62,075 nucleotides of DNA from the NCBI GenBank assembly GCA_017552715.1, contig JAFZOW010000028.1, positions 1 through 62,075 of the forward strand, given 5' to 3'. Position numbers and translations under genes: made by a program. Source of the stretch: Lachnospiraceae bacterium. GTDB lineage: Bacteria; Bacillota; Clostridia; Lachnospirales; Lachnospiraceae. Shown piece by piece: positions 5,612 to 62,075 of the stretch (position 1 is the stretch's first letter; every line of letters starts with the position of its first letter). Below the pieces are notes generated by a model. It did no database searches and was not told the DNA's origin. It saw nothing but the letters and a program-made list of their open reading frames with translations.

Positions 5612-7204
5612 ATGAAACAAAGACCTGTTGTACTCATGGTGCTCGACGGCTATGGACTTTCCGATAATCCGGAAGCCAACTCCATCGCCATCGCCAAAAC
5701 CCCCGTTATGGATAAGCTGGAGGCTGAATGCCCCTTTGTAAAGGGCTTCGCATCCGGTCTGGCCGTGGGACTGCCCGACGGACAGATGGGCAATTCCGAG
5801 GTAGGTCATATGAACATCGGCTCCGGCCGCATCATCTACCAGGATCTGACCCTGATCACCAAATACATCGAGGACGGTGTCTTCTTTAAGAATGAGGAGC
5901 TGCTCCGTGCCATCGATAACTGCAAGAAGAACAATTCCGACCTGCATGTCTGGGGACTGCTCTCCGACGGCGGTGTTCACAGCCACAACACGCATCTTTA
6001 TGCCATCCTGGAGCTGTGCAAGCGCGAAGGCTTTGAGCGTGTATATCTGCATCCCTTCTTTGACGGCCGCGACACCCCGCCTGCATCCGGTAAGGATTAC
6101 CTGCAGGCACTGGTGGACAAGGCAGCCGAGATCGGCGTGGGCAAGGTAGCTTCCCTCTCGGGCCGCTACTACGCCATGGACCGCGACAACAACTGGGACC
6201 GCATCCAGAAGGCATACGACAGCCTGGTACTGGGCGAGGGCGTAAAAGCCACGGATCCCGTTGCCGCCATGCAGGCGTCCTCCGATGAAGGCGTGACCGA
6301 CGAGTTCGTGCTGCCCACCGTCATCACCGACGAGGCCGGCAAGCCCCTTTCCCTGGTGAAGCCCAATGACTCCGTGATCTTCTTCAACTTCCGTCCGGAC
6401 CGTGCAAGAGAGATCACCAAGGCCTTCTGCTTCAGCGACGACGACATCGCTGCCCAGAGCGGTGATGCATCCGACAGCAAGTGCATCAAATTCCTTAAGC
6501 GCACCAACGGCTTCATGCCTCTTACCTATGTATGCTTCAAGGATTATGACGAGACCATCCCCAACAAGTTCGTGGCCTTCAAGAAAGAAGAGATCGTGAA
6601 CACCTTCGGCGAATATCTGGCTAACAACGGCCTGAAGCAGCTGCGTATCGCCGAGACCGAGAAATATGCCCATGTCACCTTCTTCTTCAATGGCGGTCTG
6701 GAAGAGCCCAACAAGGACGAGGACCGCATCCTGGTGAACTCCCCGGCAGTCGCCACCTACGACTTAAAGCCCGAGATGAGCGCACCCGAAGTGAGCGAAA
6801 AGCTGGATGAGCAGATCACCTCCGGAAAGTACGACGTGATCATCATCAACTTCGCCAATCCCGACATGGTGGGCCACACCGGCGTGCTGGAAGCGGCCGT
6901 GAAGGCTGTGGAGCGCATCGACGAGTGCGTCGGCGCCGCTGTGGAAGCCGTAAAGAAGATGGACGGCGTGCTCTTCATCTGTGCCGACCACGGCAACTGC
7001 GAGCAGATGGTCAATTACGAGACCGGCGAGCCTCACACGGCCCACACCACCAATCCGGTGCCTTTCATCCTTTACAACTATGATCCGGCATACACCCTGC
7101 GTGAGGGCGGCCGCCTCTGCGACATCGCCCCCACCCTGCTGCAGATCATGGATCTGCCCCAGCCCGCCGAGATGACCGGCCAGTCGCTGCTAATAAAGAA
7201 GTAA
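5612..7204 (+). CDS. gpmI: 2,3-bisphosphoglycerate-independent phosphoglycerate mutase
   Basis: The 530-residue enzyme interconverts 3- and 2-phosphoglycerate in glycolysis, using two Mn ions and a catalytic serine. The N-terminus VLMVLDGYGLSDNPEANSIA gives the first metal-binding Asp, and GQMGNSEVGHMNIGSGR (near 55-71) contains the serine that carries the phosphate. HPFFDGRDTPP (near 149) and ICADHGNCEQM near 452, then PHTAHTTNPVPF near 473, are further conserved metal and substrate segments. Length is slightly above the usual 510. The ribosome site AAGGAGAAAG precedes the ATG. Codon use is strongly GC-ended, as expected of a highly expressed gene. A terminator follows immediately. Confidence 0.97.
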   Translation: MKQRPVVLMVLDGYGLSDNPEANSIAIAKTPVMDKLEAECPFVKGFASGLAVGLPDGQMGNSEVGHMNIGSGRIIYQDLTLITKYIEDGVFFKNEELLRAIDNCKKNNSDLHVWGLLSDGGVHSHNTHLYAILELCKREGFERVYLHPFFDGRDTPPASGKDYLQALVDKAAEIGVGKVASLSGRYYAMDRDNNWDRIQKAYDSLVLGEGVKATDPVAAMQASSDEGVTDEFVLPTVITDEAGKPLSLVKPNDSVIFFNFRPDRAREITKAFCFSDDDIAAQSGDASDSKCIKFLKRTNGFMPLTYVCFKDYDETIPNKFVAFKKEEIVNTFGEYLANNGLKQLRIAETEKYAHVTFFFNGGLEEPNKDEDRILVNSPAVATYDLKPEMSAPEVSEKLDEQITSGKYDVIIINFANPDMVGHTGVLEAAVKAVERIDECVGAAVEAVKKMDGVLFICADHGNCEQMVNYETGEPHTAHTTNPVPFILYNYDPAYTLREGGRLCDIAPTLLQIMDLPQPAEMTGQSLLIKK

Positions 7205-7218
7205 AACATCTTACTATA

Positions 7219-7250
7219 GAAAAAAGCGTCGCTCCGGCGGCGCTTTTTTT
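7219..7250 (+). terminator. Intrinsic terminator of gpmI
   Basis: AAAAAAGCG-T-CGC, loop TCCG, GCG-G-CGC and then a seven-T run, starting about 15 bases after the gpmI stop. A-runs on the left side mean it may also act weakly on the other strand. Confidence 0.88.
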
Positions 7251-7269
7251 ATGCCAGTTTCTCTGAACG

Positions 7270-7605
7270 GCTCCGGCACATGTGTTCGCACTCGGACTCA
7301 GCTCGCGCCACAGGGACTTCCCACTGACTGAACGGTCGCACGCCTCCCCATATCCATGGGGCCCCTTCCGTGCTCCAGTCAGCGGGCCCCTCCTCGTGGC
7401 CGGCACGGATCTCGCCACAGGATCTTCCCGCTGCCTAAGCGGTCGCACATCTCCCCACATGCGTGGGGCCCCTTATGTGCTCCAGGCATCGGGCCCCTCC
7501 TTGTGGCCTGCTCGTAGCGGACGCTAAGCTCGCAGAACGGCCTAAAGGCCTGCTCGCTAAGCGCCGACGGCTCGATACGGTCCTCGTTGCGAATCACATG
7601 CTGCC
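7270..7605. repeat. Structured interspersed repeat, copy 2
   Basis: This is the second copy of the element at 490-825, in the same orientation. It again has two 107-base units (CGCCACAGG at 7306 and 7413). The first unit differs from copy 1 at about seven positions, while the second unit and right part differ at only one plus a hairpin segment: copy 1 has GCCG CAAG CGGC where copy 2 has GGCC TAAA GGCC, so both arms changed and pairing was kept. Similarity ends after GGTCCTCG near 7586, with scattered matches beyond. It lies between two convergent terminated units, so neither neighbouring operon needs to transcribe it. Confidence 0.85.
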
Positions 7606-7955
7606 TCCGCCTTTGCACATTTGACTTGTCAACGCATGAAATGCGGGAGCAGAAATAAGCAAGAGACCGAAGCATTGCCGGAGCACTTAGCAAGTGCGAG
7701 TGTCCGATCTCGCCCGAGGTACTGTTCGAGCGATGCTCGCGCCCCGATCTGATAGGCGCGAGCAAGCGAGTTGCCGAGAGGGAGGCGCTATTGCGCGAAG
7801 CGCAATTATAAATGCGCCGACCGATGTGCCGCCGACCGTAGGGAGAAGGCGATACCGAAAACGAGTCGGTTTCAGGACACGAAGCACGAGCTTATGTGCG
7901 GAGGCGACAAGCGAGGGCTCTGCTTTTTCTGCTCACACTAAGAGCATACAAAGTA
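7606..7955. other. GC-rich structured intergenic block of unknown class
   Basis: About 350 bases between the repeat copy 2 and the ftsH terminator contain no convincing gene but many short inverted repeats: GCACTT AGC AAGTGC near 7684-7698, CGAGC GAT GCTCG near 7728-7740, and ATTGCGC GAA GCGCAAT near 7791-7807. Short words such as GCGAG and GGCGA recur. ORFs exist on both strands but have no ribosome sites and no recognisable protein features. It may be a structured RNA gene or decayed repeat DNA; I cannot tell which strand, if any, is transcribed. Confidence 0.5.
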
Positions 7956-7981
7956 AAAATGACAGTGTAAACTGTCATTTT
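7956..7981 (-). terminator. Terminator downstream of ftsH
   Basis: AAAATGACAG and CTGTCATTTT pair perfectly around a six-base loop; on the minus strand the stem is followed by a T-run (TTTTTACTTT). It lies about 175 bases past the ftsH stop. Bases 7982-8156 between it and ftsH hold nothing recognisable. Confidence 0.72.
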
Positions 7982-8156
7982 CAGAGAAGGTATTTCTTTC
8001 TAATGGGGTTATAGCAAAAAACTATAAAATGTATTGGGGGTTACACCTTGGATTATAGCAGATGCCCCTCTAAAGTCTATTCTCATTTATCACAAAATTT
8101 ACAATGAAACGCACCTTTCTTTGTGCAAATTTACAAATCCGGCAAAAAGCCCGTAT

Positions 8157-9959
8157 TTACGCCTCAAACAGGGCCTCAAACTCGTCGCGTCCGATGCGTT
8201 CCTTCTCGATCAGCAGCTGTGCGCAGCGGTCCAGAACCGCCAGATTCTCTTCAAGGATGCGCTTGGCTTCGTCATGGCACTCATCGATGATGCGCTTCAC
8301 TTCCGCATCGATCTCCGCCGCCTTGGACTCGCTGGTGGTCCGGGCATGAGCCAGATCCCTGCCCAGGAAGACCTCGTTATCATCATCCTCGTAGCAGACC
8401 AGCCCCAGAGGAGACATGCCGAAACGGGTCACCATGCTGCGGGCAGTCTTCGTGGCATTCTTGATATCCGCGGAAGCACCGGTGCTCACATCCCCAAAGA
8501 TCAGCTCCTCGGCCACACGGCCACCCAGGCTCACCATCAGACGCTGGCGCAGCTGTTCCTTCGTCTGATGCCAGTCATCGTTATCGGGTACGGGCATCAT
8601 ATAGCCTGCGGCGCCTTCTCCCGTAGGAATAACGGATACGGTATAGACAGCCCCCGTAAGAGGCAGGAGGTGCATGAGGATCGCGTGGCCCGACTCATGA
8701 TAGGCCGTGATCTTCTTATCACGATCCGTGATCAGGTGGCTGCGCTTCTCGGTTCCGATCCCCACCTTGATGAAGCTCTTGCGGATATCCTCTTCATCCA
8801 GGAAGGAACGGTTGTCACGGGCCGCCTTGATGGCCGCCTCATTCAGCAGGTTCTCCAGATCCGCGCCTGTAAAGCCTGCAGTGGTACGGGCCAGTGACTT
8901 TAAGTCTACATCCTCTGCCATGGGCTTGTTTTTGGAATGGATCTTCAGGATCTCCTCGCGGCCCTGTACATCGGGCACGCTCACGGTGATCTTCCGGTCA
9001 AATCGGCCGGGACGCAGTATGGCGGGATCCAGGATATCCACCCGGTTGGTAGCCGCCATCACGATGATGCCTTCGTTGGCCTCAAAGCCGTCCATCTCCA
9101 CCAGGAGCTGGTTCAGGGTCTGCTCACGTTCGTCGTGACCGCCGCCCATGCCTGCTCCGCGGCGTCTTGCCACCGCATCGATCTCGTCGATAAATACGAT
9201 GCAGGGAGAGTTCTTCTTGGCCTCTTCGAAAAGGTCGCGTACACGACTGGCGCCCACACCTACGAACATCTCCACAAAATCCGAACCGGAGATAAAGAAG
9301 AAGGGCACCTTTGCTTCCCCGGCTATAGCCTTGGCCAGCAGCGTCTTACCGGTACCCGGGCGTCCCTCCAGCAGGATGCCCTTGGGGATACGTGCTCCCA
9401 TCTTCGTATACTTGCCCGGATCCTTCAGAAAGTCCACCACTTCATCCAGGTCGTCTTTCTCCTCCTTAAGGCCTGCCACATCGGCAAAGCTGACCTTGGG
9501 ATCCTCCACCATCTGTGCCCGGCTGCGCCCGAAGTTCATCATCCGGGCACTCATCCCGCCGCCGGCCTGATTGTTCATCATGGTGCTGTAGAAAAAAACA
9601 AACACCACCAGTACCAGAAGACTGGGCAGCACATACATGAGGAACCAGTTATCCTGGGGCACATCTTCTATGCGCACCGGGATATCCTTCTGGATGGCAT
9701 ATTTCTCGATCTCGCGCACGTCCGTCACATTGAAGTGGCGCTCGTTGTAATCCTTTGTCGTAACATAGACCGTACCGGTGGGCACTTCCTTATTCTGCTC
9801 GATGCGGATGCTCACCACGACTCCATCCTGTACACTCTTCTCAAAATCATCACGGGTATAGGTATTCTCCCGCCTGGTGGCAAAGCTGACCCAGATCGCC
9901 GCTGCCAGGAGCAGGATGATCAGAAGAAAAACAAAACTGAAATTAGACTGTCTTCTCAT
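8157..9959 (-). CDS. ftsH: ATP-dependent zinc metalloprotease FtsH
   Basis: A 600-residue membrane AAA+ protease that degrades misfolded or regulatory membrane and cytosolic proteins. A first membrane segment lies near residues 7-25, an extracytoplasmic domain to about 105, and a second segment ([17 protein letters not shown]) near 108-124. The AAA module shows Walker A GRPGTGKT near 201, Walker [11 protein letters not shown] near 252, and the second region of homology ILRPGRFDR. The zinc site is HESGH near 419. Walker A carries Arg where most FtsH have Pro (GPPGTGKT), which is tolerated by the motif. It is last in the hup-rqcP-divIC-tilS-ftsH order that is standard in Firmicutes, with 34 bases between tilS and ftsH. 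Confidence 0.97.
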
Positions 9960-52190: not shown

Positions 52191-52970
52191 TTAGCCGAGC
52201 TTCTTCTTCAGATACTCAAGGATCTCTGTCCGGGGTGTTGTCTTCAAAAGATATCCGTCCGGCTTTAAGCTCATGACCCGGGAAACCGCTTCCTTTGTTC
52301 CCACGCCGGTCAGAAAGATCACGGGGATGTGTGCCGTAGCTTCTTCCTGGCGAAGCATCTGCAGGACCTGGGGACCGTCCACCACGGGCATTTCATAATC
52401 CAGCAGGATCAGATCCACCTGCTCATCTTCCGCAGCTTTCACCAGGAATGTAATAGCCTGCATGCCGGCTGTCACTATGTCAACACGGTACAGATCCTTG
52501 ATCCATTCCCGTACCATCTTTGCAAAAGAAGGATCGTCGTCCACGATCAGTATACGGCTTTTTTTCCGCACTTCTTCTTTCCTGAGGATCTCCGCTTCCA
52601 CTTTAAGAGTGAGCACGTTCATGTCCAGCGGACGGTTCAGCCAGGTGTACTGACGCAGTGCAGGGATCTCTCCCAGCAGATCGTCATAATACTTCGGTTC
52701 ACCCACAAGGATCATCTTCTGATGCGTTTCGGCAATGAACTCCGTCAGATGCTGCAGCTTCTTCCTCTTGATCGTATCATCATAGATATCTCCCGGAAGA
52801 TAGAAAAGGAAGAGCTCTACTTTTCCCGCAAAGCGCTTCACCTGCTCGTCCAGATCTTCAGCAACCGTAGTAACCGCATATTCACTATCCTGAAGTTTCC
52901 TTTCAATACCCTTTACGACCACACTGTACTGGTACATCAGGATAACGATCTCTTTTACGGCTTCACTCAT
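52191..52970 (-). CDS. Two-receiver response regulator
   Basis: A 259-residue protein of two parts. The N-terminal 130 residues look like a degenerate receiver (no acceptor Asp recognised; LFLFYLPGDIYDD replaces the usual). The C-terminal receiver (about 138-258) is complete: DDD near 146-148, phospho-acceptor Asp in LILLDYEMPVVDG near 191, Thr in VIFLTGVG near 221, Lys in LLKTTP near 241. There is no output domain, so it works by protein contact or as a phosphate sink. It is the last gene of the signalling locus, 48 bases after the symporter. Confidence 0.87.
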   Translation of the reverse strand: MSEAVKEIVILMYQYSVVVKGIERKLQDSEYAVTTVAEDLDEQVKRFAGKVELFLFYLPGDIYDDTIKRKKLQHLTEFIAETHQKMILVGEPKYYDDLLGEIPALRQYTWLNRPLDMNVLTLKVEAEILRKEEVRKKSRILIVDDDPSFAKMVREWIKDLYRVDIVTAGMQAITFLVKAAEDEQVDLILLDYEMPVVDGPQVLQMLRQEEATAHIPVIFLTGVGTKEAVSRVMSLKPDGYLLKTTPRTEILEYLKKKLG

Positions 52971-53018: not shown

Positions 53019-54542
53019 TTAATCTGCACCCTTTTGTACAGCCTTCCACGCATCTTTCTGAATATCCGGGTCATAAGACAGCATCGCTTCCACATCCTTT
53101 CCCTTGATCCGGCGGGCGATATAGTTTTTCGTAAGCTTCACGATCGTGGGTGAGAGTACCAGTATCCCTATAAGGTTCGGGAGCATCATCAGTCCGTTGA
53201 AGGTATCCGATATATCCCAGGCCAGGTTCGACTCCATCACGGCCCCGAATACGATCAGGCCGATAAATACCAGCCGGTAGATCCTGGCCGCTGTCACCCC
53301 GAAAAGATATTCCGTAACCTTGGCTCCGTAAAAGGACCAGCCCATGACCGTAGTAAAGGCAAAGAGCGTGATCGTGAGTACGACAAACCATTCACCGATC
53401 TTATCGAAGCAGGAACCGAAGGCCTGTGCTACCAGAGTCGCATCGTTGACTCCTTCCACCATCAGCCCGGTGGAAAGATCGATGGCTCCCGAGCTCAGCA
53501 CAACAACAGCAGTCATAGTACAGATCACCATGGTATCCAGGAACACTTCTGCGATCCCCCACATTCCCTGACGGACCGGTTCTCTGGCGCAGCTGGTGCT
53601 GTGTACCATCACGGAGGATCCCAGGCCGGCTTCGTTGGAGAAGACCCCTCGTTTGCAGCCGTTCTGTATGGTGTTCAGTGCCAGCTGTAGAGATGATCCC
53701 GCTATACCGCCCTTAACCGCCGCGGGTCCGAGAGCAAAGCGGAAGATGGAAGAAAAGACATCCGGTATGGTACGGAAGTGCATGAGGATCACCAGCAGGC
53801 AGCCTATGATATATGCGATGCACATAAACGGAACCAGTACTTCCGAAACCGCTGCCAGTCTGCGAAAGCCCCCCAGGATGATGATGGCGGCGGCGATCAT
53901 CAGTATGAAACCTATGGTCCAGTTGACTTTGGACACTCCCATAAATGTTCCGCTGTCAATGTCGGAAAGAAAAGCCGACTCCACATTAATGGTGATCTTG
54001 TTGATCTGTCCCATGTTGCCTATACCGAAGGAGGCAAGCACCGTAAAGACGCAGAACAGCACACCCAGTACTTTCCCCAGACCTTTGCAGTGCTTAATGG
54101 AGCCGAGACCGTCCTGCAGATAATACATGGGACCGCCCGACCAGGCTCCCTGTGAGTTTCGGCGACGATAATACAAACCCAGAAGATTCTCGGAATACTT
54201 CACCATCATGCCGAAAAAAGCAGCCACCCACATCCAGAAGACAGCACCGGGACCGCCCATGCAGATCGCCGTGGCCACCCCGGCAATATTGCCGGTCCCG
54301 ATGGTGGCACAAAGGGCGGTACAGATGGCGCGCATCTGGGATAAGGCTCCGGCATCATTGATGATACGTCCGGAACTCCGGGCAATGCTGAAGGTACTCT
54401 TCCACCAGTGCCGGATATGGCAGATCTGAAACAGCCCCGTGATCAGGGTACAGATCAGACCGGTGCCCAGCAGAAGAACAAGGCCAAAGGTCCCCCACGC
54501 AAAACTGTTTACGCTGTCGTTGATACGAATGACTGTTTCCAT
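53019..54542 (-). CDS. Alanine/glycine:cation symporter (AGCS family)
   Basis: A 507-residue sodium/alanine symporter-like protein. Characteristic segments are GTGNIAGVATAICMGGPGAVFWMWVAAFFGM near 79-110, GGPMYYLQDGLG near 133, and SNEAGLGSSVMVHSTSCAREPVRQG near 300-325. About 11 membrane helices can be counted. It transports alanine and/or glycine with Na+ or H+ by family knowledge. The gene is one base downstream of the FIST-like gene, so they are coupled, linking amino-acid uptake to the signalling genes. Confidence 0.93.
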   Translation of the reverse strand: METVIRINDSVNSFAWGTFGLVLLLGTGLICTLITGLFQICHIRHWWKSTFSIARSSGRIINDAGALSQMRAICTALCATIGTGNIAGVATAICMGGPGAVFWMWVAAFFGMMVKYSENLLGLYYRRRNSQGAWSGGPMYYLQDGLGSIKHCKGLGKVLGVLFCVFTVLASFGIGNMGQINKITINVESAFLSDIDSGTFMGVSKVNWTIGFILMIAAAIIILGGFRRLAAVSEVLVPFMCIAYIIGCLLVILMHFRTIPDVFSSIFRFALGPAAVKGGIAGSSLQLALNTIQNGCKRGVFSNEAGLGSSVMVHSTSCAREPVRQGMWGIAEVFLDTMVICTMTAVVVLSSGAIDLSTGLMVEGVNDATLVAQAFGSCFDKIGEWFVVLTITLFAFTTVMGWSFYGAKVTEYLFGVTAARIYRLVFIGLIVFGAVMESNLAWDISDTFNGLMMLPNLIGILVLSPTIVKLTKNYIARRIKGKDVEAMLSYDPDIQKDAWKAVQKGAD

Positions 54543-54543
54543 G

Positions 54544-55509
54544 TTATCCTACGATCTCACAATAAACCAGTGTCTGGTTCAGCATCTGATAAGCCACCTC
54601 ACCAAAGGTAACAGGCCCGGTATAGGGCGGTATCTTTTTGCCGTTTAAATTCCCGTGCAGATAATTCAGGATACAGTTGCAGGAAAAGACGGGATTGCGC
54701 GCAGCGGCAGCGTCGATCCGGTTCTTGAATTCCGTTGCATAATCTTCCACCGGCACGGCAAAACGGTATTCGATATTCTTAAATACCGGAGCATATAAAG
54801 CTACCATCCCGTCTGTCACTGCTTTAATGGAAGTATTGATATAGGAACCGTTATAATCCGCAACCAGCGGCATACTGGGATCGATCCCCTTCTTGGCGAT
54901 ATATTCCGCAAAATTGACCTCCTGCCCGTTCACGGTGCATTTGGTCACGTTCAGTTCATTTTCGTTGAAACGGATAACGGGATCGGTCTTATCATCCGTA
55001 AAGATGTTGATCATATTGATCATGGCCGCTTTCCCCTGGGGAAGGCGGATATACATGACCACAGCCTTATCGTCATAACTCTCTCCGCTGCTGCCGTCAT
55101 ATACCCTCATCTCACCGCCGGCTTCCAGATCCGCGCCGGAGATCCAGCCTATGGTGGGATGCATGAGCAGCTCCTCCACATCGGGTGCTTCCTTAGCATA
55201 CTTGGTGGCCACGTCGGAGCCGAAAGGCATGATGAGCAGAGTGAGACCGTTATCATAGCACTCCTCTACGATCTGAAAGATATTATACTTTCCGTATACG
55301 GCGATCCGGATCTCCTCCGCATAATCGATCTCACTGACAAAGAGTTTATCCTTTGTCTGGATGCCGCCTTCCTCCCCGATAAAATAGGGCGTGGTCCCTC
55401 CGATCCATTTCCCCTTGGGAAGCTGCCTGAGCAGAGTATCGTCCGCAGCGATATGCAGTATCTTGCCTTCATTGATCAATGCAACGGTTTCTTCCAATGT
55501 GATGAGCAT
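54544..55509 (-). CDS. FIST-like signalling protein, function unknown
   Basis: A 321-residue soluble protein. I recall no confident family name, but the C-terminal part (NPVFSCNCILNY...PVTFGEVAYQMLNQTLVYCEI) has the layout of the FIST_C domain (a Cys-rich stretch, then F-x-GE and NQT). The N-terminal half with WIGGTTPYFIGEEGG and a Pro-Gly-rich core is consistent with a ligand-binding sensory module. FIST proteins are often found next to amino-acid transport genes and kinases; here it lies one base from an alanine/glycine symporter and 35 bases from a small gene of the kinase group. That supports amino-acid sensing, but it is an inference. Confidence 0.6.
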   Translation of the reverse strand: MLITLEETVALINEGKILHIAADDTLLRQLPKGKWIGGTTPYFIGEEGGIQTKDKLFVSEIDYAEEIRIAVYGKYNIFQIVEECYDNGLTLLIMPFGSDVATKYAKEAPDVEELLMHPTIGWISGADLEAGGEMRVYDGSSGESYDDKAVVMYIRLPQGKAAMINMINIFTDDKTDPVIRFNENELNVTKCTVNGQEVNFAEYIAKKGIDPSMPLVADYNGSYINTSIKAVTDGMVALYAPVFKNIEYRFAVPVEDYATEFKNRIDAAAARNPVFSCNCILNYLHGNLNGKKIPPYTGPVTFGEVAYQMLNQTLVYCEIVG

Positions 55510-55781: not shown

Positions 55782-58700
55782 TTATCCCAACGCTTCTTTT
55801 AATCCGTCGTAATCCAGAGCTTCCGCTTTCTCACGGACTTTCGAAAACCTTTCCGCTTCGGGATCGGGTATGGCGTAGCCTTCGATCTCCTTAAGGATGG
55901 CTTCCACCATATCACAGTCCATCGCATCTGCCGCCTCTTTAAGGCCTTCGTAAATACTTTCCATAAGGTATTCATCCGCCAAAGGCTTCTCATCCCCGGC
56001 TTCCTTCCCGGCTTCCGCCTCAGCAAAGACGGGCGCAAGCACTTCCCGGAAGGTAAGATAATCATCCAGCACAAAGGAATGGTTTTCCTGAATGAAAGAG
56101 ATATCCCCTGCTTTCCCGGCGGTCTCCAGAAGCTGGGCGGCATCCCCCAGCTCCAGTGCTCCCACCAGTCTGGCCGAGCTCTTCAGGGCATGGATCTTTA
56201 TCGTATAGTTTTCCCAGTCTTCGGTATTATAGAAGTTCTGAAGCTCGTCATACTTTTCCTGAATGGAATCATAAAAGATCTTCAGCACCGCTTTGAATGC
56301 TTCCGCAGAACCGCTGTTGTTAATGGCTGCTCTGGTATCGATACAGCTTAAGGACTTATACCACTGCGCTTCGGGATCGTCATCCTCAGGCATGGGAACG
56401 TCAGGCACTTCGGCCGGGGTCATCACTTCTTCGGAAGCTTCTTCCGCCGAAGACTCCTCCACTTCCGCAAGGAGCTCTTCCTCCTGATCCTCAGCGTCGC
56501 TTTCGTCTTCCTGCGCCTTCACCTCTGCCGTCATATCCTCAAAATAGGATGCGAGATTGTACGATTTATTGGACTTCAGGAAATACAGGATCCCGAAGGT
56601 ACCCGGCCCGCAGTTGGACGAAATGGCCGCCGAGGCCTGCTGGAAGACCACACGTTCGAAATATGCCGTCTTTTTGATCTCTTCTTCGATCCACAGCAGG
56701 GTTTCCTCCGGTATATCCACATAGGTCACGAATACCACATCCGCATCCGGGATCGTATCCACCGGAAGGGCTTTGTGTATATATTTCCGGTGAGCTCTTT
56801 TGGTGCTGCCCAGCCACAGTCCCCCTATCCCCGTTTTATCATTCCTTATCCGCAGGGAAAGATGAAGGTTCAGGCTTCTTGCGAGCTTGTTCAGCCGCTG
56901 ACTGATCAGGCCTCTCTTTGCCATGTATTCCGTCGTATCGATCACAAAGCTGCATCTCAGACGGTGCTTGATCTGTTCGAGCTCTTCAATGATATCCCTG
57001 GCCGGGAGTCCCTGCTGCATCAGCTTATATGCTATGAGCACCAGAAGACCCGTGGAACTGGAAAGCCCCTCCGAATTGATCACCGTCACATTATCGAAAG
57101 ACTTGGCCGCCTCCGAAGCGATCTGATATTCCTTACTCATACTCGTCGTAAGGGAGATATGGATCAGGTGATGTGCCTTTTTCAGCGCATCGGCAAAGAA
57201 TTCAGTGTAAGCCGCTTCATCCTGCGGTAAGGATGTGGCTTCTTTTCCGGAGTTTACATGCCGTATCAGCTCATGGGCATCCATATGGACGCCGTCCTTG
57301 AATATACCCTCTTCCGTACGGATGCGGAAAGGTATGATGGGTATGTGCAGTTTTCGGACCACGGTATCCGGCAGATCGCACATATTGGAAGCGGTAACGA
57401 TCACGGGAGCCTTCTCCGCATATCTGTCCGAGGTGTGGATCGCTTCATCATCTCCCGTCATGGCATTGCGGAGTATGACCTTTTCGGAAGGTATATGCCG
57501 TATCAGCATCTCCTCCATGGCCTGACCCGAAACGGGTTTCACCAGATAGCCGTCAAAGCCGGCGCGGTTATAAAGATCCCGGTTCTCACTTCCCGCATTG
57601 GCCGTAAGTACGATCACCGGTGTATTCCGGTTCAGTCCTCCGGCCTGATCGCGGATCAGGGACAGGCACTCGATACCGTCCATCTCCGGCATAAGGTGAT
57701 CCATGAATATGGTATCATAATGAACCTTCTGACACATATTCAGGGCTTCCTTCCCGCTCAGGGCCTTGTCGATGGCCATATCGGTATCTTCCAGGAGGCG
57801 GCGCTCCACCTCCAGGTTCATCTCGTTATCGTCCACGATCAGGATACGGGCTTCCGGTGCCAGGAAGCTGCTCTCGTAAGCTCCCCTGCGTGACACCTGC
57901 TGGTTATGGATATTGAGCTCGCCCACCTGTTTGTGATCGGAAACCTTCTGCTTCAGCTGGACGGTAAAGGTCGAACCCTCACCGTAGACACTGCTCACGG
58001 TAACGCTCCCGCCCATGAGCTCCACCAGCTGTTTTACGATGCTCAGTCCCAGGCCGGTACCTTCGATATGCCGGTTCTTTCCCTCGTCCACCCGCTTGAA
58101 GGCATCGAAAAGATAGGGCAGGTCTTCCTTTTTGATCCCCATTCCCGTATCCGAAATGGATATCATCAGCTCTACCGTATCTTCATCCGCATCCCGGCTT
58201 TCCACATGCAGCCCCACATGACCGCTTTTCGTATACTTCACCGCATTGTTCAGAAGATTGATGATCACCTGTTTGATGCGCACCTCATCCCCGTACAGAA
58301 CCATGGGAACTTCGGGGTCCACGCTGATATCAAAGCCCAGGCCTTTTTCATGTGCCTTGAGCCAGAGCATGTTCACGATCTCGGAAAGCATATCCCCGAT
58401 GCGGTAATCCACCGGAACGATATCCATGCTCCCGGCTTCCATCTTGGAGAAATCCAGGATATCGTTGATCAGGGCCAGCAGCATCTTACCGGAACCCTGT
58501 ATCCCCGAAGCATCCTTGATGATCTCATCGGATGCTTCCTGATCCCTTAGGATCAGCTCGTTGAGACCCAGTATGGAATTGATAGGCGTACGGATCTCAT
58601 GGCTCATGCTGGAGAAGAAACGGTTCTGTGCACGGGTAAGTTCCTCCGCCCTTTCCGTTTCCTTTTTCGCACGCGCGTTTTCCTCCGAAAAGATCAGCCC

Positions 58701-59246
58701 CTGGGACCAGTTCATGACAAAACAGAGAATGCCCACGAGTATCAAAGAGATAAAGGAATCTACAAAAAACATTTCCCGGGAATGCTGATACACCAGCTCC
58801 GGAAGGTAGTAAGCCGCAAGGTAACAGCCGAGGGTCAGCAGAGTGAGCAGCGTAAACATCACGTTACGCCACTTCCCTTTAAGCGTGATACCTATATAAG
58901 TAAAAGCAAAGATGATCCAGATGACTCCTCCGCCCTCCAGGCCTCCGCCGAAGAAAAACAGCGCAGGCAGGATGAAAAACACCAGGCTCAATACGATAAA
59001 GTGCATGGCGAACTTAAGCTTTTCATAATAGAGACACAGAAGCACGATAAGAGGCACGGCGATGAGGACTGCCACAAGGGTAATGAGCTCGTAGGTATTC
59101 TCGCCCGTGATCAGATCCCCCACAAAGGCGATGGTTACCGTGATCTCGCTCACCAATGTCAGGATCAGGAAAACTCTTTCGGAAAAATCCCTGTTGGGAT
59201 CCTTAGCGGCAGCAAAGGCGGATTTAATGAATTTGATCAGATTCAT
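55782..59246 (-). CDS. Hybrid histidine kinase with receiver, DegV and HPt domains
   Basis: A 1154-residue membrane protein. Order: five to six membrane helices (about 25-190); HisKA with His in SSMSHEIRTPINS near 216; HATPase with GMGIKKEDLPYLFDAF and HIEGTGLGLSIVKQL (about 330-445); a receiver (about 470-590) with Asp in FMDHLMPEMDG near 513; a DegV-type domain (about 610-890) with APVIVTASNMCDLP, IPIIPFRIRTEEG, KDGV, ATSLPQ, HISLTTSMS, VINSEGLSS and TTEYMAKRG; an acidic linker; an HPt domain with IHALKSSARLVG near 1020; and an acidic helical tail. DegV proteins bind fatty acids. The fusion suggests a lipid-responsive phosphorelay. It overlaps the next kinase gene by four bases. Confidence 0.88.
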   Translation of the reverse strand: MNLIKFIKSAFAAAKDPNRDFSERVFLILTLVSEITVTIAFVGDLITGENTYELITLVAVLIAVPLIVLLCLYYEKLKFAMHFIVLSLVFFILPALFFFGGGLEGGGVIWIIFAFTYIGITLKGKWRNVMFTLLTLLTLGCYLAAYYLPELVYQHSREMFFVDSFISLILVGILCFVMNWSQGLIFSEENARAKKETERAEELTRAQNRFFSSMSHEIRTPINSILGLNELILRDQEASDEIIKDASGIQGSGKMLLALINDILDFSKMEAGSMDIVPVDYRIGDMLSEIVNMLWLKAHEKGLGFDISVDPEVPMVLYGDEVRIKQVIINLLNNAVKYTKSGHVGLHVESRDADEDTVELMISISDTGMGIKKEDLPYLFDAFKRVDEGKNRHIEGTGLGLSIVKQLVELMGGSVTVSSVYGEGSTFTVQLKQKVSDHKQVGELNIHNQQVSRRGAYESSFLAPEARILIVDDNEMNLEVERRLLEDTDMAIDKALSGKEALNMCQKVHYDTIFMDHLMPEMDGIECLSLIRDQAGGLNRNTPVIVLTANAGSENRDLYNRAGFDGYLVKPVSGQAMEEMLIRHIPSEKVILRNAMTGDDEAIHTSDRYAEKAPVIVTASNMCDLPDTVVRKLHIPIIPFRIRTEEGIFKDGVHMDAHELIRHVNSGKEATSLPQDEAAYTEFFADALKKAHHLIHISLTTSMSKEYQIASEAAKSFDNVTVINSEGLSSSTGLLVLIAYKLMQQGLPARDIIEELEQIKHRLRCSFVIDTTEYMAKRGLISQRLNKLARSLNLHLSLRIRNDKTGIGGLWLGSTKRAHRKYIHKALPVDTIPDADVVFVTYVDIPEETLLWIEEEIKKTAYFERVVFQQASAAISSNCGPGTFGILYFLKSNKSYNLASYFEDMTAEVKAQEDESDAEDQEEELLAEVEESSAEEASEEVMTPAEVPDVPMPEDDDPEAQWYKSLSCIDTRAAINNSGSAEAFKAVLKIFYDSIQEKYDELQNFYNTEDWENYTIKIHALKSSARLVGALELGDAAQLLETAGKAGDISFIQENHSFVLDDYLTFREVLAPVFAEAEAGKEAGDEKPLADEYLMESIYEGLKEAADAMDCDMVEAILKEIEGYAIPDPEAERFSKVREKAEALDYDGLKEALG

Positions 59247-61294
59247 TTCTTTTCACCTCCTCTTCCTGCTGCTGCTCCGGACAGTACACGCTGCACCACT
59301 CTTTCAAAATCTGCCGTATTGATGGGTTTGGCGATAAATCCGTCAAAGCCTTCCTGAATGAACATCTCCCGGGCTCCCGACACGGCATTGGCCGTAAGGG
59401 CGATCACACGTGCCTTCTTACCCAGCTCATCGGCTGCGGCCCGTATGCGTTTCATAGCTTCCACACCATCCATTTCCGGCATCATATGATCCATGAAGAT
59501 CAGATCGTAGCTGAAGTCACGGAATTTCTGTATGGCTTCCTTCCCGCTCCCTGCGGTCTCTACGCTCATCTCGTAATTACGGAACAGCGAGGTCGCCACC
59601 ACCAGGTTCATGGGTTCATCGTCCACCACCAGGGCCTTCACATTCCTGAACACAGGCTTCTCCGTAGTCACCTGCCCGTCCATATCCTTCGCATTCCGTC
59701 CGTCATTCAGCACCTTGATGACCGGATATGCGTACAGGGGCTTGGGCATCAGAAGCACCCGGCTGCCTGCTCCGGTCTTCACTCCGGGACCGGCGGAAAC
59801 AGCCACCACGATATCTTCCTGGGAAAGGGCATCAAAATAGCCCCTGTTCTCTTCGTATTCTTCCTGCCCCATAAACACATGGGTGACATTCATTTTTTCC
59901 TTCAGGCGCTCCACTTCATAAACCGTATCTGCGGGATAGAGGGGAACATGGATCCCCGTCGCCAGCCGGGCTGCCATATTGCGGTAGAAATCCCGCAGCC
60001 TGGGAGTCTTGTATTTATCCGGCTTAACATGGAAGAGCACCGCTCCGTCAAAGCTTTCCTCCAGTGACAGGCAGGGCTTTCCGTCCACCAGCTTCTGGGG
60101 GATCGTAACACGGATGGTGGTACCGACCCTTCTCTCGCTTTCGATCTTTACAAAACCACCCATACGGTGGGCAAATCCGTATACGATGAAGAGGCCCAGA
60201 CCTATACCTCCGGAACTGCGGTTCCGCTTTTTATTCTCCTGATACATACCTTCGGTCACGGAACGGATTGCGCTCCGGTTCATTCCGATGCCGGTGTCGG
60301 TCATCTCTATGGTCAGGTTTACACCGTAGTCCGTATTTTCCGAATACATCTTCACCAAGATACCGCCCTGCCGGGTGAATTTCACGGCATTCTCCAGCAG
60401 ATGCCGGAAGATCTTGTGCAGCTTTTTGATGTCTCCCCGCATCATCGCGGGAGTTGCGGGATCCAGATCCACCACCAGTTCCAGATCCCCGGCCTTTTCG
60501 CTCACCCGGAAACTGGTGACCACATCATTGATCAGGGAGGTGCTCATGTAATTGTCTTCCTCCAGGAAGACCTTTCCACGCTTACACTCCGTATAATCCT
60601 GGATATCCTCGATCTGATAGGCCAGTCTCACCCCGGCCTGTTTGATGGATTCCGCTTCCTTCCCCGCCCCTTTCCGGATGAGCAGATCCGACATGCCGTT
60701 AACGACATTTACCGGTGTACGCAGCTCATGGGAGATATTGGAAAGGAAATCCTCCATACTCGCATCGTTTGCCTCGATGCGCCCTTCCTTAAGCCGGCTT
60801 TCTTCTTCCTCTTCGAGCCGCTCATTGATGCTCCGTACATTGATAAAATAAACGAGCAGAACAATGGATACATGAAGGAGCATACGGGATACGGAAAGCC
60901 TGTCATATACCAGGGGATCCCCTCCCGGAAGGTTTATGATATGAATGAACCATATGACAAAGAACTCCAGCAGGAGGACATTCATCATATAGGCACTGTT
61001 CAGGATCGAGTAGGTTATCATCACCAGGACCACTGCGATGGCAACATCAAAAAAGCTTGCTTTGTGGATCCCGTGATAAAACAGCAGTAACACGGCGAAC
61101 ATAAAGTAGAACAGCCTGCGAATGCGGAAATCCATTACATCCGAAAGATTTACTGCCCAGAGGGAGACCGCACCCACAAAAACAACCGGCGGAACCCAGA
61201 ATTCCCAGCCCATCAGGATATTCTCTATGATCAGCCCCACCGAGGCCAGTGTGGCTACCAGAACAATGATCTTCTCGTTACTTTTCCCGTTCAT
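59243..61294 (-). CDS. Membrane hybrid histidine kinase with receiver
   Basis: A 683-residue protein: six membrane helices (about 8-150), a short linker, HisKA with His in SNISHELRTPVNV near 188, HATPase with MTDTGIGMNRSAI near 335 and GGIGLGLFIVYGFAHRMGG near 365, a degenerate middle domain (about 415-550, receiver-like but no obvious acceptor), and a C-terminal receiver (about 560-675) with Asp in LIFMDHMMPEMDG near 600. No HPt domain, so phosphate may pass to the HPt of the adjacent kinase. AAAGGAG precedes the ATG, and the last bases of the GGDEF gene overlap it by 17. Confidence 0.9.
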   Translation of the reverse strand: MNGKSNEKIIVLVATLASVGLIIENILMGWEFWVPPVVFVGAVSLWAVNLSDVMDFRIRRLFYFMFAVLLLFYHGIHKASFFDVAIAVVLVMITYSILNSAYMMNVLLLEFFVIWFIHIINLPGGDPLVYDRLSVSRMLLHVSIVLLVYFINVRSINERLEEEEESRLKEGRIEANDASMEDFLSNISHELRTPVNVVNGMSDLLIRKGAGKEAESIKQAGVRLAYQIEDIQDYTECKRGKVFLEEDNYMSTSLINDVVTSFRVSEKAGDLELVVDLDPATPAMMRGDIKKLHKIFRHLLENAVKFTRQGGILVKMYSENTDYGVNLTIEMTDTGIGMNRSAIRSVTEGMYQENKKRNRSSGGIGLGLFIVYGFAHRMGGFVKIESERRVGTTIRVTIPQKLVDGKPCLSLEESFDGAVLFHVKPDKYKTPRLRDFYRNMAARLATGIHVPLYPADTVYEVERLKEKMNVTHVFMGQEEYEENRGYFDALSQEDIVVAVSAGPGVKTGAGSRVLLMPKPLYAYPVIKVLNDGRNAKDMDGQVTTEKPVFRNVKALVVDDEPMNLVVATSLFRNYEMSVETAGSGKEAIQKFRDFSYDLIFMDHMMPEMDGVEAMKRIRAAADELGKKARVIALTANAVSGAREMFIQEGFDGFIAKPINTADFERVVQRVLSGAAAGRGGEKK

Positions 61295-62075
61295 GGCGCT
61301 CCTTTCTGAGCATGGAAGTTACATAACTGACCTTAAGCCGCTCACCGTAAGGGGTACGGGACCAGGCCTTCATAACTCGTCCCACCAGACGGGAGATATC
61401 ATTTTCCGCCAGCAGCGGCAGCACCGCAAAATACCGGTTCTGTCTCCACTGAAGGATGATATCCGTCTTTCGGAGGTTGTCCTTTAAGACATTGCCGAAT
61501 TCCGATACCATTTCCGTATAGATCACGCCCTTTTCATCCGAGGAAAGGGAAAACAGCACCCTGGCCGCCTCCCCGTCAAAACGGGTCATAAATCTCTGGA
61601 TAAAGCGGTAGTTCCAGGAAAAAGCCTCCTGCCCCAGGAGCATCCCTCCCCGGATCTCCCCCCGTTCCGAAATGATCTGAATGATATTATGAAGCTCCTT
61701 CTCCGGATCGTCTTCGACGTTTTCAACGGATATTTCCGGATCATAGATCCTGTATCCGTGCTTCCCGTTCCGTTTTACTTCATACAGCGCACTGTCCGCA
61801 TATTGAAAGAGGATACGGAAATTATCGGTACCGGACGGAACAAAGCTTACTCCGACGGATATTCCCAGAGGGATCCCGTGTCCTTTTCCCATAAGCTGTT
61901 CCGCTTTTTCCGTAAGCTGTTCGTTCAGCCTGTGGGTAAAGGCTGCAACTTCTTCCCTATGGGTCATCTGGGGAAAAAAGGCCAAGAACTCATCGCCGCC
62001 GATCCTGGAGATAACATCTTCCTTTCGTACATTATATCTGAAAATAGATGCGAACTCAACCAGCACACGATCTCC
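61278..62075 (-). CDS. C-terminal part of a tandem GGDEF protein (runs off window end)
   Basis: The frame is open to the window edge, so only the last 265 residues are seen. The first domain has an intact GGDEF in SRIGGDEFLAFF and the preceding GDRVLVEFASIF helix, i.e. an apparently active diguanylate cyclase signature. The second half (about 125-255) has the fold spacing of a GGDEF domain with the motif replaced by QNRYF (LQWRQNRYFAVLPL), so it is probably a degenerate regulatory copy. It is the first gene seen of the signalling locus and overlaps the next kinase gene. Confidence 0.88.
   Translation of the reverse strand, partial: GDRVLVEFASIFRYNVRKEDVISRIGGDEFLAFFPQMTHREEVAAFTHRLNEQLTEKAEQLMGKGHGIPLGISVGVSFVPSGTDNFRILFQYADSALYEVKRNGKHGYRIYDPEISVENVEDDPEKELHNIIQIISERGEIRGGMLLGQEAFSWNYRFIQRFMTRFDGEAARVLFSLSSDEKGVIYTEMVSEFGNVLKDNLRKTDIILQWRQNRYFAVLPLLAENDISRLVGRVMKAWSRTPYGERLKVSYVTSMLRKERHEREK

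Follow-up and report, generated by a model that had tools for sequence, protein, structure and literature searches.

DegV/FakB proteins are known as the carriers of fatty acid kinase. The described subunits FakB1 and FakB2 (PF02645; 5UTO, 4X9X) are the reference for a DegV domain found here in a hybrid histidine kinase (HK) of 1154 residues, encoded on the minus strand of a 62,075-nucleotide stretch of Lachnospiraceae DNA (contig JAFZOW010000028.1, hereafter the window); this domain differs from them in having Asn in place of His266 and in being part of a kinase chain. The protein has its HisKA-HATPase-receiver (REC) core in common with BarA/TorS/LuxQ-type hybrid kinases, which gave its best NCBIfam scores, although among the best 25 of 153 NCBIfam rows no kinase model reaches its cut-off; it departs from that type in having an added DegV domain and a histidine phosphotransfer (HPt) domain that is common to the pair it forms with a partner kinase. 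A further likeness is to RpfC-RpfG of diffusible signal factor (DSF) quorum sensing, where, according to PMC5391125, a membrane histidine kinase reads a fatty acid; there, however, the ligand is bound by an N-terminal stretch of 22 residues that acts as the sensor, whereas here the folded DegV domain is the candidate lipid sensor. Natural Dak2-FakA_M-DegV fusions of about 600 residues (L185, 5065-6858; L187, 2589-4376) also join DegV to an enzyme but, unlike the window protein, carry a fatty acid kinase domain. DhaQ (2IU4), a DhaK paralogue that serves as a co-activator in Lactococcus, differs from the window's DegV domain in that its partner is a transcription factor and not a kinase.

In the portions of the open-licence literature that were searched, including PMC12688256, PMC3146951 and PMC9912610, no DegV-histidine kinase fusion was described and no match was found for the residue switch or the shared-HPt pattern reported below. 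The parts by themselves are known. As far as sequence comparison goes, both kinases have conserved relay His and Asp residues, there is one HPt per pair, and the DegV domain has a FakB fold with a carboxylate site of Ser-Ser-Asn in place of Thr-Ser-His. We give a nearly even chance to the reading in which the 1154-residue protein serves as second kinase in a phosphorelay of two kinases and a DegV carrier has been converted to a lipid sensor, with cyclic di-GMP (c-di-GMP) as the likely output. The protein comprises the following features:

55782..59246, minus strand: DegV hybrid histidine kinase of 1154 residues (open reading frame, Pfam, hydropathy, site inspection)
58716..59174, minus strand: N-terminal membrane region, residues 25-177 (hydropathy; no Pfam family)
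58431..58631, minus strand: HisKA domain, residues 206-272, with phospho-accepting His216 (Pfam)
57948..58292, minus strand: HATPase_c domain, residues 319-433 (Pfam)
57507..57845, minus strand: receiver domain, residues 468-580, with Asp516 (Pfam)
56580..57401, minus strand: DegV/FakB-fold domain, residues 616-889 (Pfam)
56097..56288, minus strand: HPt domain, Pfam Hpt at residues 987-1050, with phospho-accepting His1019 (Pfam and site inspection)

Read on the plus strand, 55782-59246 contains five stops, while the minus strand forms one uninterrupted open reading frame of 1154 residues. An earlier note on this DNA had proposed a single continuous frame of this length with the design HK-REC-DegV-HPt, without giving a strand; the frame is indeed continuous, and Pfam finds HisKA (E-value 1.8e-16), HATPase_c (3.8e-29), Response_reg (9e-24), DegV and Hpt (1.3e-7; 32.2 bits against a cut-off of 24.6) in that order and all above cut-offs, preceded by about six hydrophobic segments and followed by a C-terminal tail without an assigned family. 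For residues 610-890, the span singled out beforehand for checking against the DegV profile and fold, Pfam DegV (PF02645) matched at 616-889 (1.9e-31, 109.9 bits against a cut-off of 27, profile positions 4-278 of 280), the NCBIfam model TIGR00762 was likewise above threshold (128 against 99.7 bits), and structure prediction on residues 605-897 gave a predicted DegV fold, the closest solved structures to which are mostly titled as fatty-acid or lipid binders. A chance or misread frame is ruled out by these Pfam domains together with full-length frames of the same architecture in many other genomes.

The phosphorelay residues H216, D516 and H1019 are all present in the window protein. In a set of 118 different fused proteins, 73 of them encoded at named loci and 45 in further genomes, the HisKA His is found in 111 (7 gaps), the receiver Asp in 116 (2 gaps) and the HPt His in 91 (26 gaps and one Lys).

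We also analyzed how widely the fusion is distributed, in searches that reached up to phylum level. The window's genome has seven DegV matches, i.e., five stand-alone proteins, the 1154-residue protein and a paralogue of 1174 residues that shares its design and is 49% identical to it over the part compared. Within the same genus, DegV matched as part of a frame of roughly 600 residues or longer in 20 of 34 genomes (among 60 genomes searched), and one genome of this set, G023, carries an unfused form that is described below. An order-level search of 295 genomes yielded fused frames in at least nine genomes of the same family and at least one of another family (G279), all ten of which were checked by domain layout; among the matches listed from a phylum search of 398 genomes, fused frames occurred only in the window's genome, G076 and G063. 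In named genomes, at least 494 stretches encode some DegV-domain relative, not all of which need be fused, and among the best 80 of the 494, which we analyzed, the DegV frame was present in 80 of 80 and a kinase domain lay in the same frame in 77, the other three being cut at the locus edge. The titles of these 80 name Lachnospiraceae and Butyrivibrio, with a few Eubacterium, Clostridiaceae and uncultured bacterium entries, and many of them name rumen or other ruminant-gut samples. A one-off fusion was rejected, since the architecture recurs in many genomes.

The DegV kinase does not stand alone in the window, where a second kinase lies directly upstream with a 4-bp overlap:

59243..61294, minus strand: partner hybrid histidine kinase of 683 residues (membrane segments, HisKA, HATPase_c and REC; no HPt match)

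Two arrangements were found. In class I, an HK-REC partner of about 683 residues accompanies an HK-REC-DegV-HPt kinase; in class II, an HK-REC-HPt partner of about 850-930 residues accompanies an HK-REC-DegV kinase with DegV at the C terminus. A kinase was directly upstream in 100 of the 108 loci with a complete 5' end, 63 of them with the same 4-base overlap, and the eight loci in which none was called include contig-end loci or split upstream frames. The partner kinases retained the HisKA His in 98 of 100 and the receiver Asp in 98 (2 gaps). When the HPt domain was located in the 100 pairs, it was in the DegV kinase only in 78, in the partner only in 19, in neither in 3 and in both in none, i.e., one HPt per pair in 97. 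Among the exceptions, the HPt of L053 sits in a separate 167-residue frame downstream, and L075 runs into the contig end. At L064 (G006, 6222-9545), where the partner kinase is short (548 residues), the HPt has given way to a segment that resembles the REC-only response regulator encoded downstream in the window, in its N-terminal half (43% identity over 121 residues); because this locus fuses that half to the DegV kinase, the regulator can be tied to the kinase-pair system.

The placement of DegV between receiver and HPt, which the earlier note had stressed, thus holds for the window protein but not for class II, where DegV lies at the C terminus and the neighboring kinase carries the HPt, nor for G023, where DegV is a separate protein. 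At that locus (L050, 7977-11633), a gene for a lone 296-residue DegV comes 3 bases behind that of an HK-REC-HPt kinase, and next to it is a gene with REC and GGDEF; the unfused DegV has the fused-type signature (Ser, Ser, Lys, Ile, Asn) at the positions described below and groups with the fused clade with 100/100 support. What counts is probably that DegV belongs to the two-kinase set, and not that it is placed between receiver and HPt. One class II locus (L042), with an HK-REC-HPt gene and a REC-HD gene, resembles RpfC/RpfG in domain make-up. An origin of the class I HPt from the class II partner is not supported by the HPt tree, which is of low resolution (109 columns, 45 of 86 inner branches open) and sets class I nearer to other HPt kinases of these genomes. 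In the partner kinase itself, residues ~400-555, which have no assigned family and lie between HATPase and REC, look by eye like a degenerate receiver, and a sub-threshold Pfam ADPrib_exo_Tox match (19.7 bits against a cut-off of 23.4; residues 155-274, overlapping the HisKA region) is most likely due to chance.

We then turned to the lipid-binding site. In FakB1, PMC8892158 describes a Ser171-His270-Thr62-carboxylate-Ser95 network, with Arg205 as the key FakA-binding residue that also binds the membrane and Arg173 as required in catalysis; the residues of interest were not found in the passages of PMC9136124 that were searched. Five positions were compared between the 118 fused and 33 stand-alone domains after identical domains had been reduced to a single entry. 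Close relatives are over-represented in the stand-alone set, in which G023 is counted; it contains 3 of the 5 stand-alone DegVs of the window's genome, these being the ones that passed the coverage filter. We refer to the positions by FakB2 residues T61, S93, R170, R202 and H266, located in 4X9X by chain numbering minus a presumed 20-residue tag and matched to the FakB1 residues by order. The corresponding residues of the window protein are:

57231..57233, minus strand: Ser672, at the Thr61 place, carboxylate network (profile alignment to 4X9X)
57135..57137, minus strand: Ser704, at the Ser93 place, carboxylate network (pairwise and profile alignment)
56907..56909, minus strand: Leu780, at the Arg170 place, catalysis with FakA (pairwise and profile alignment)
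56811..56813, minus strand: Leu812, at the Arg202 place, FakA and membrane docking (alignment with stand-alone relatives)
56613..56615, minus strand: Asn878, at the His266 place, carboxylate network (profile alignment)

At the Thr61 place, fused domains have S in 107, A in 6, T in 3 and V in 2, compared with T in 32 and S in 1 of the stand-alone domains; at the Ser93 place, the fused counts are S 107, A 3, G 3, E 2, T 1, R 1 and V 1, and the stand-alone counts S 32 and T 1. The His266 place is N in 111 fused domains (K 4, S 1, H 1, T 1) and H in 32 stand-alone ones, the single stand-alone N being that of G023. At the Arg170 place, stand-alone domains have R in 32 and K in 1, while fused domains have L in 66, R 17, F 10, H 8, Y 7, Q 5, I 3 and K 2; by class, R occurs in 6 of 92 class I domains, compared with R in 11 and K in 2 of 26 class II/other domains, a group that takes in three cut or broken class I-type frames. 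The Arg202 place is R in 29 of 33 stand-alone domains (the other four being G023 and three with Arg one column away) and mostly M, F, L, I or V in the fused ones, with R in 1 of 118. Ser672, Ser704 and Asn878 are each invariant across 71 class I domains.

Of the residues expected in a functional FakB, the window protein has the hydroxyls at the Thr61 and Ser93 places (Ser672 and Ser704, the former a Thr-to-Ser substitution), whereas His266, Arg170 and Arg202 are not found in it; an apparent loss of Thr61 in a first pairwise alignment was withdrawn, as the profile alignment places Ser672 there. Judged from these alignments, the fused domains have kept the carboxylate hydroxyls, exchanged His for Asn, and had the arginines that serve the client protein shifted or lost; relative to FakB1/FakB2 they differ at the Arg202 place and mostly at the Arg170 place, subject to whether residue 812 or 814 is the proper register for the former. 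In the DegV tree they form a well-supported clade with a stem of 0.82 changes per column. One sub-branch (L065, L066, L068, L069 and L067) has Lys, or in L067 Thr, for Asn at the His266 place and perhaps binds a different ligand.

Since Leu780, Leu812 and Asn878 replace the Arg170, Arg202 and His266 of stand-alone relatives, the window's DegV domain is probably not a carrier feeding FakA. In the mechanism that we favor, its ligand would be a cytosolic fatty acid, or a lipid like it, that is held and not passed on, and the loaded and empty states would differ in how phosphate moves through the kinase pair, so that a fatty-acid carrier would have been turned into a sensor. Phosphate would pass from H216 to D516 to H1019, with the partner's receiver feeding the same HPt, and this single HPt would be the common exit to a GGDEF or HD-type enzyme and to the REC-only regulator encoded alongside; because of that exit, the output would most likely be the c-di-GMP level. 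That lipid binding by DegV could gate phosphotransfer, as had been suggested earlier, is plausible, and the idea is helped by a headgroup site that is conserved though altered. The 557-residue Dak2-domain frame and the five stand-alone DegV genes that the genome has besides the kinase also speak for the sensor reading, as does the unfused G023 domain with its fused-type signature. A bolder version, in which the captured carrier is a built-in lipid sensor of a relay with a single HPt, and coincidence detection by the two membrane kinases together with the cytosolic lipid pocket sets c-di-GMP in rumen Lachnospiraceae in response to, e.g., fatty acids released from feed, seems possible to us, with the balance tilted against it. 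Some free fatty acids are toxic to rumen Butyrivibrio-type bacteria, and the system is a possible route by which such bacteria perceive them: a membrane kinase with a built-in carrier-like domain may let cells read a fatty-acid-like molecule as a signal, and many of the bacteria carrying it come from the rumen. More generally, a lineage with the same fold, an altered binding site and changed kinase-client residues allows the conversion of a carrier into a sensor to be tested, and the one-HPt-per-pair pattern is a natural experiment in how two hybrid kinases share a phosphorelay.

The genes around the pair, which include the candidate output, are as follows, with downstream counts taken over the 67 class I loci that have at least 4.5 kb of downstream DNA:

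61278..62075, minus strand: gene for a GGDEF protein (diguanylate cyclase), truncated where the contig stops at 62075 (Pfam)
54544..55509, minus strand: DUF6976 protein of 321 residues, in 27 of 67 class I loci (Pfam)
53019..54542, minus strand: Na+:alanine symporter family protein, in 48 of 67 class I loci (Pfam)
52191..52970, minus strand: REC-only response regulator, N-terminal half without a Pfam match, in 50 of 67 class I loci (Pfam)

Genes with GGDEF, HD or EAL domains are found alongside kinase pairs, and a relative (L057) is REC-GGDEF. DUF6976 has what we take to be a FIST-like look.

Several observations weigh against a lipid sensor with c-di-GMP output. In 13 of the 26 class II/other domains R or K persists at the Arg170 place; two positions earlier, at residue 778, 89 of the 118 fused domains have K or R (Arg778 in the window protein), which might substitute for Arg170. 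A 2-residue gap in the FakB2 profile alignment would move Arg202 to residue 814, a position with R in 39 of the 118 fused domains, K in 7 and Ser in the window protein, so that loss of Arg202 is less certain for the fused family as a whole than for the window. Such basic residues near both places in many relatives weaken the argument that the domain is not a FakA carrier, and they slightly lowered our estimate for the sensor. Of the 118 fused domains, 8 have no hydroxyl at the Thr61 place and 10 have none at the Ser93 place. The natural Dak2-DegV fusions likewise have an altered docking Arg and a changed His (F at the Arg202 place and G or N at the His266 place in L185 and L187, where, unlike in the window, Arg170 is kept), and these changes may stem from covalent fusion rather than from sensing. 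Finally, 44 of 108 loci have a GGDEF or HD gene, with REC in view or not, in the 5.5 kb upstream, a figure that is probably too low given the limited flanks, and the frequent symporter points to amino acids as well as lipids.

These points bear on four other explanations, of which a ligand-free scaffold and an amino-acid signal are the main ones. The DegV domain could lack a ligand altogether and act as a scaffold or dimer contact joining the two kinases and the HPt, as the long stem of the fused clade and the members without a hydroxyl at the Thr61 or Ser93 place, mostly class II, would allow; three carboxylate-site positions invariant in class I, with Asn at the Asn878 position in nearly all fused domains, and the drift of the Arg170 and Arg202 places while the carboxylate site is kept, argue otherwise, and we consider a scaffold unlikely, if not negligibly so. 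Also unlikely in our estimate is that the pocket holds some other small molecule, or that the signal is an amino acid on which the linked symporter and DUF6976 protein act, with DegV secondary. The His-to-Asn change does alter the headgroup site, and both genes recur at class I loci, but the nearest solved structures bind mostly fatty acids or lipids by their titles, and the symporter accompanies only 4 of 23 frames of 1000 residues or less; as this pool of short frames also holds cut class I frames, the symporter is probably rarer still in true class II.

That the domain is still a FakB, delivering fatty acid to FakA while the fusion reports lipid flux through FakA contact, is disfavored on residue grounds and strikes us as improbable. 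The fold is that of DegV, the window's genome encodes a Dak2-domain protein as large as FakA in a separate 557-residue frame, and the nearby basic residues just described would fit; yet R at the Arg202 and Arg170 places is found in 1 and 17 of 118 fused domains as opposed to 29 and 32 of 33 stand-alone ones, and the window has Leu at both and Ser in the other register. A neutral domain fusion without special function we regard as very improbable: many multi-domain kinases do occur in the genome, which has 16 HPt matches, but one well-supported clade spread over about a hundred loci, with invariant site residues and a fixed gene pair, is not what it would lead one to expect. Apart from the fused lineage and the sensor reading that we prefer for it, stand-alone DegV genes with canonical residues adjoin a simple REC gene and an HK gene at two loci (L184 and L167).

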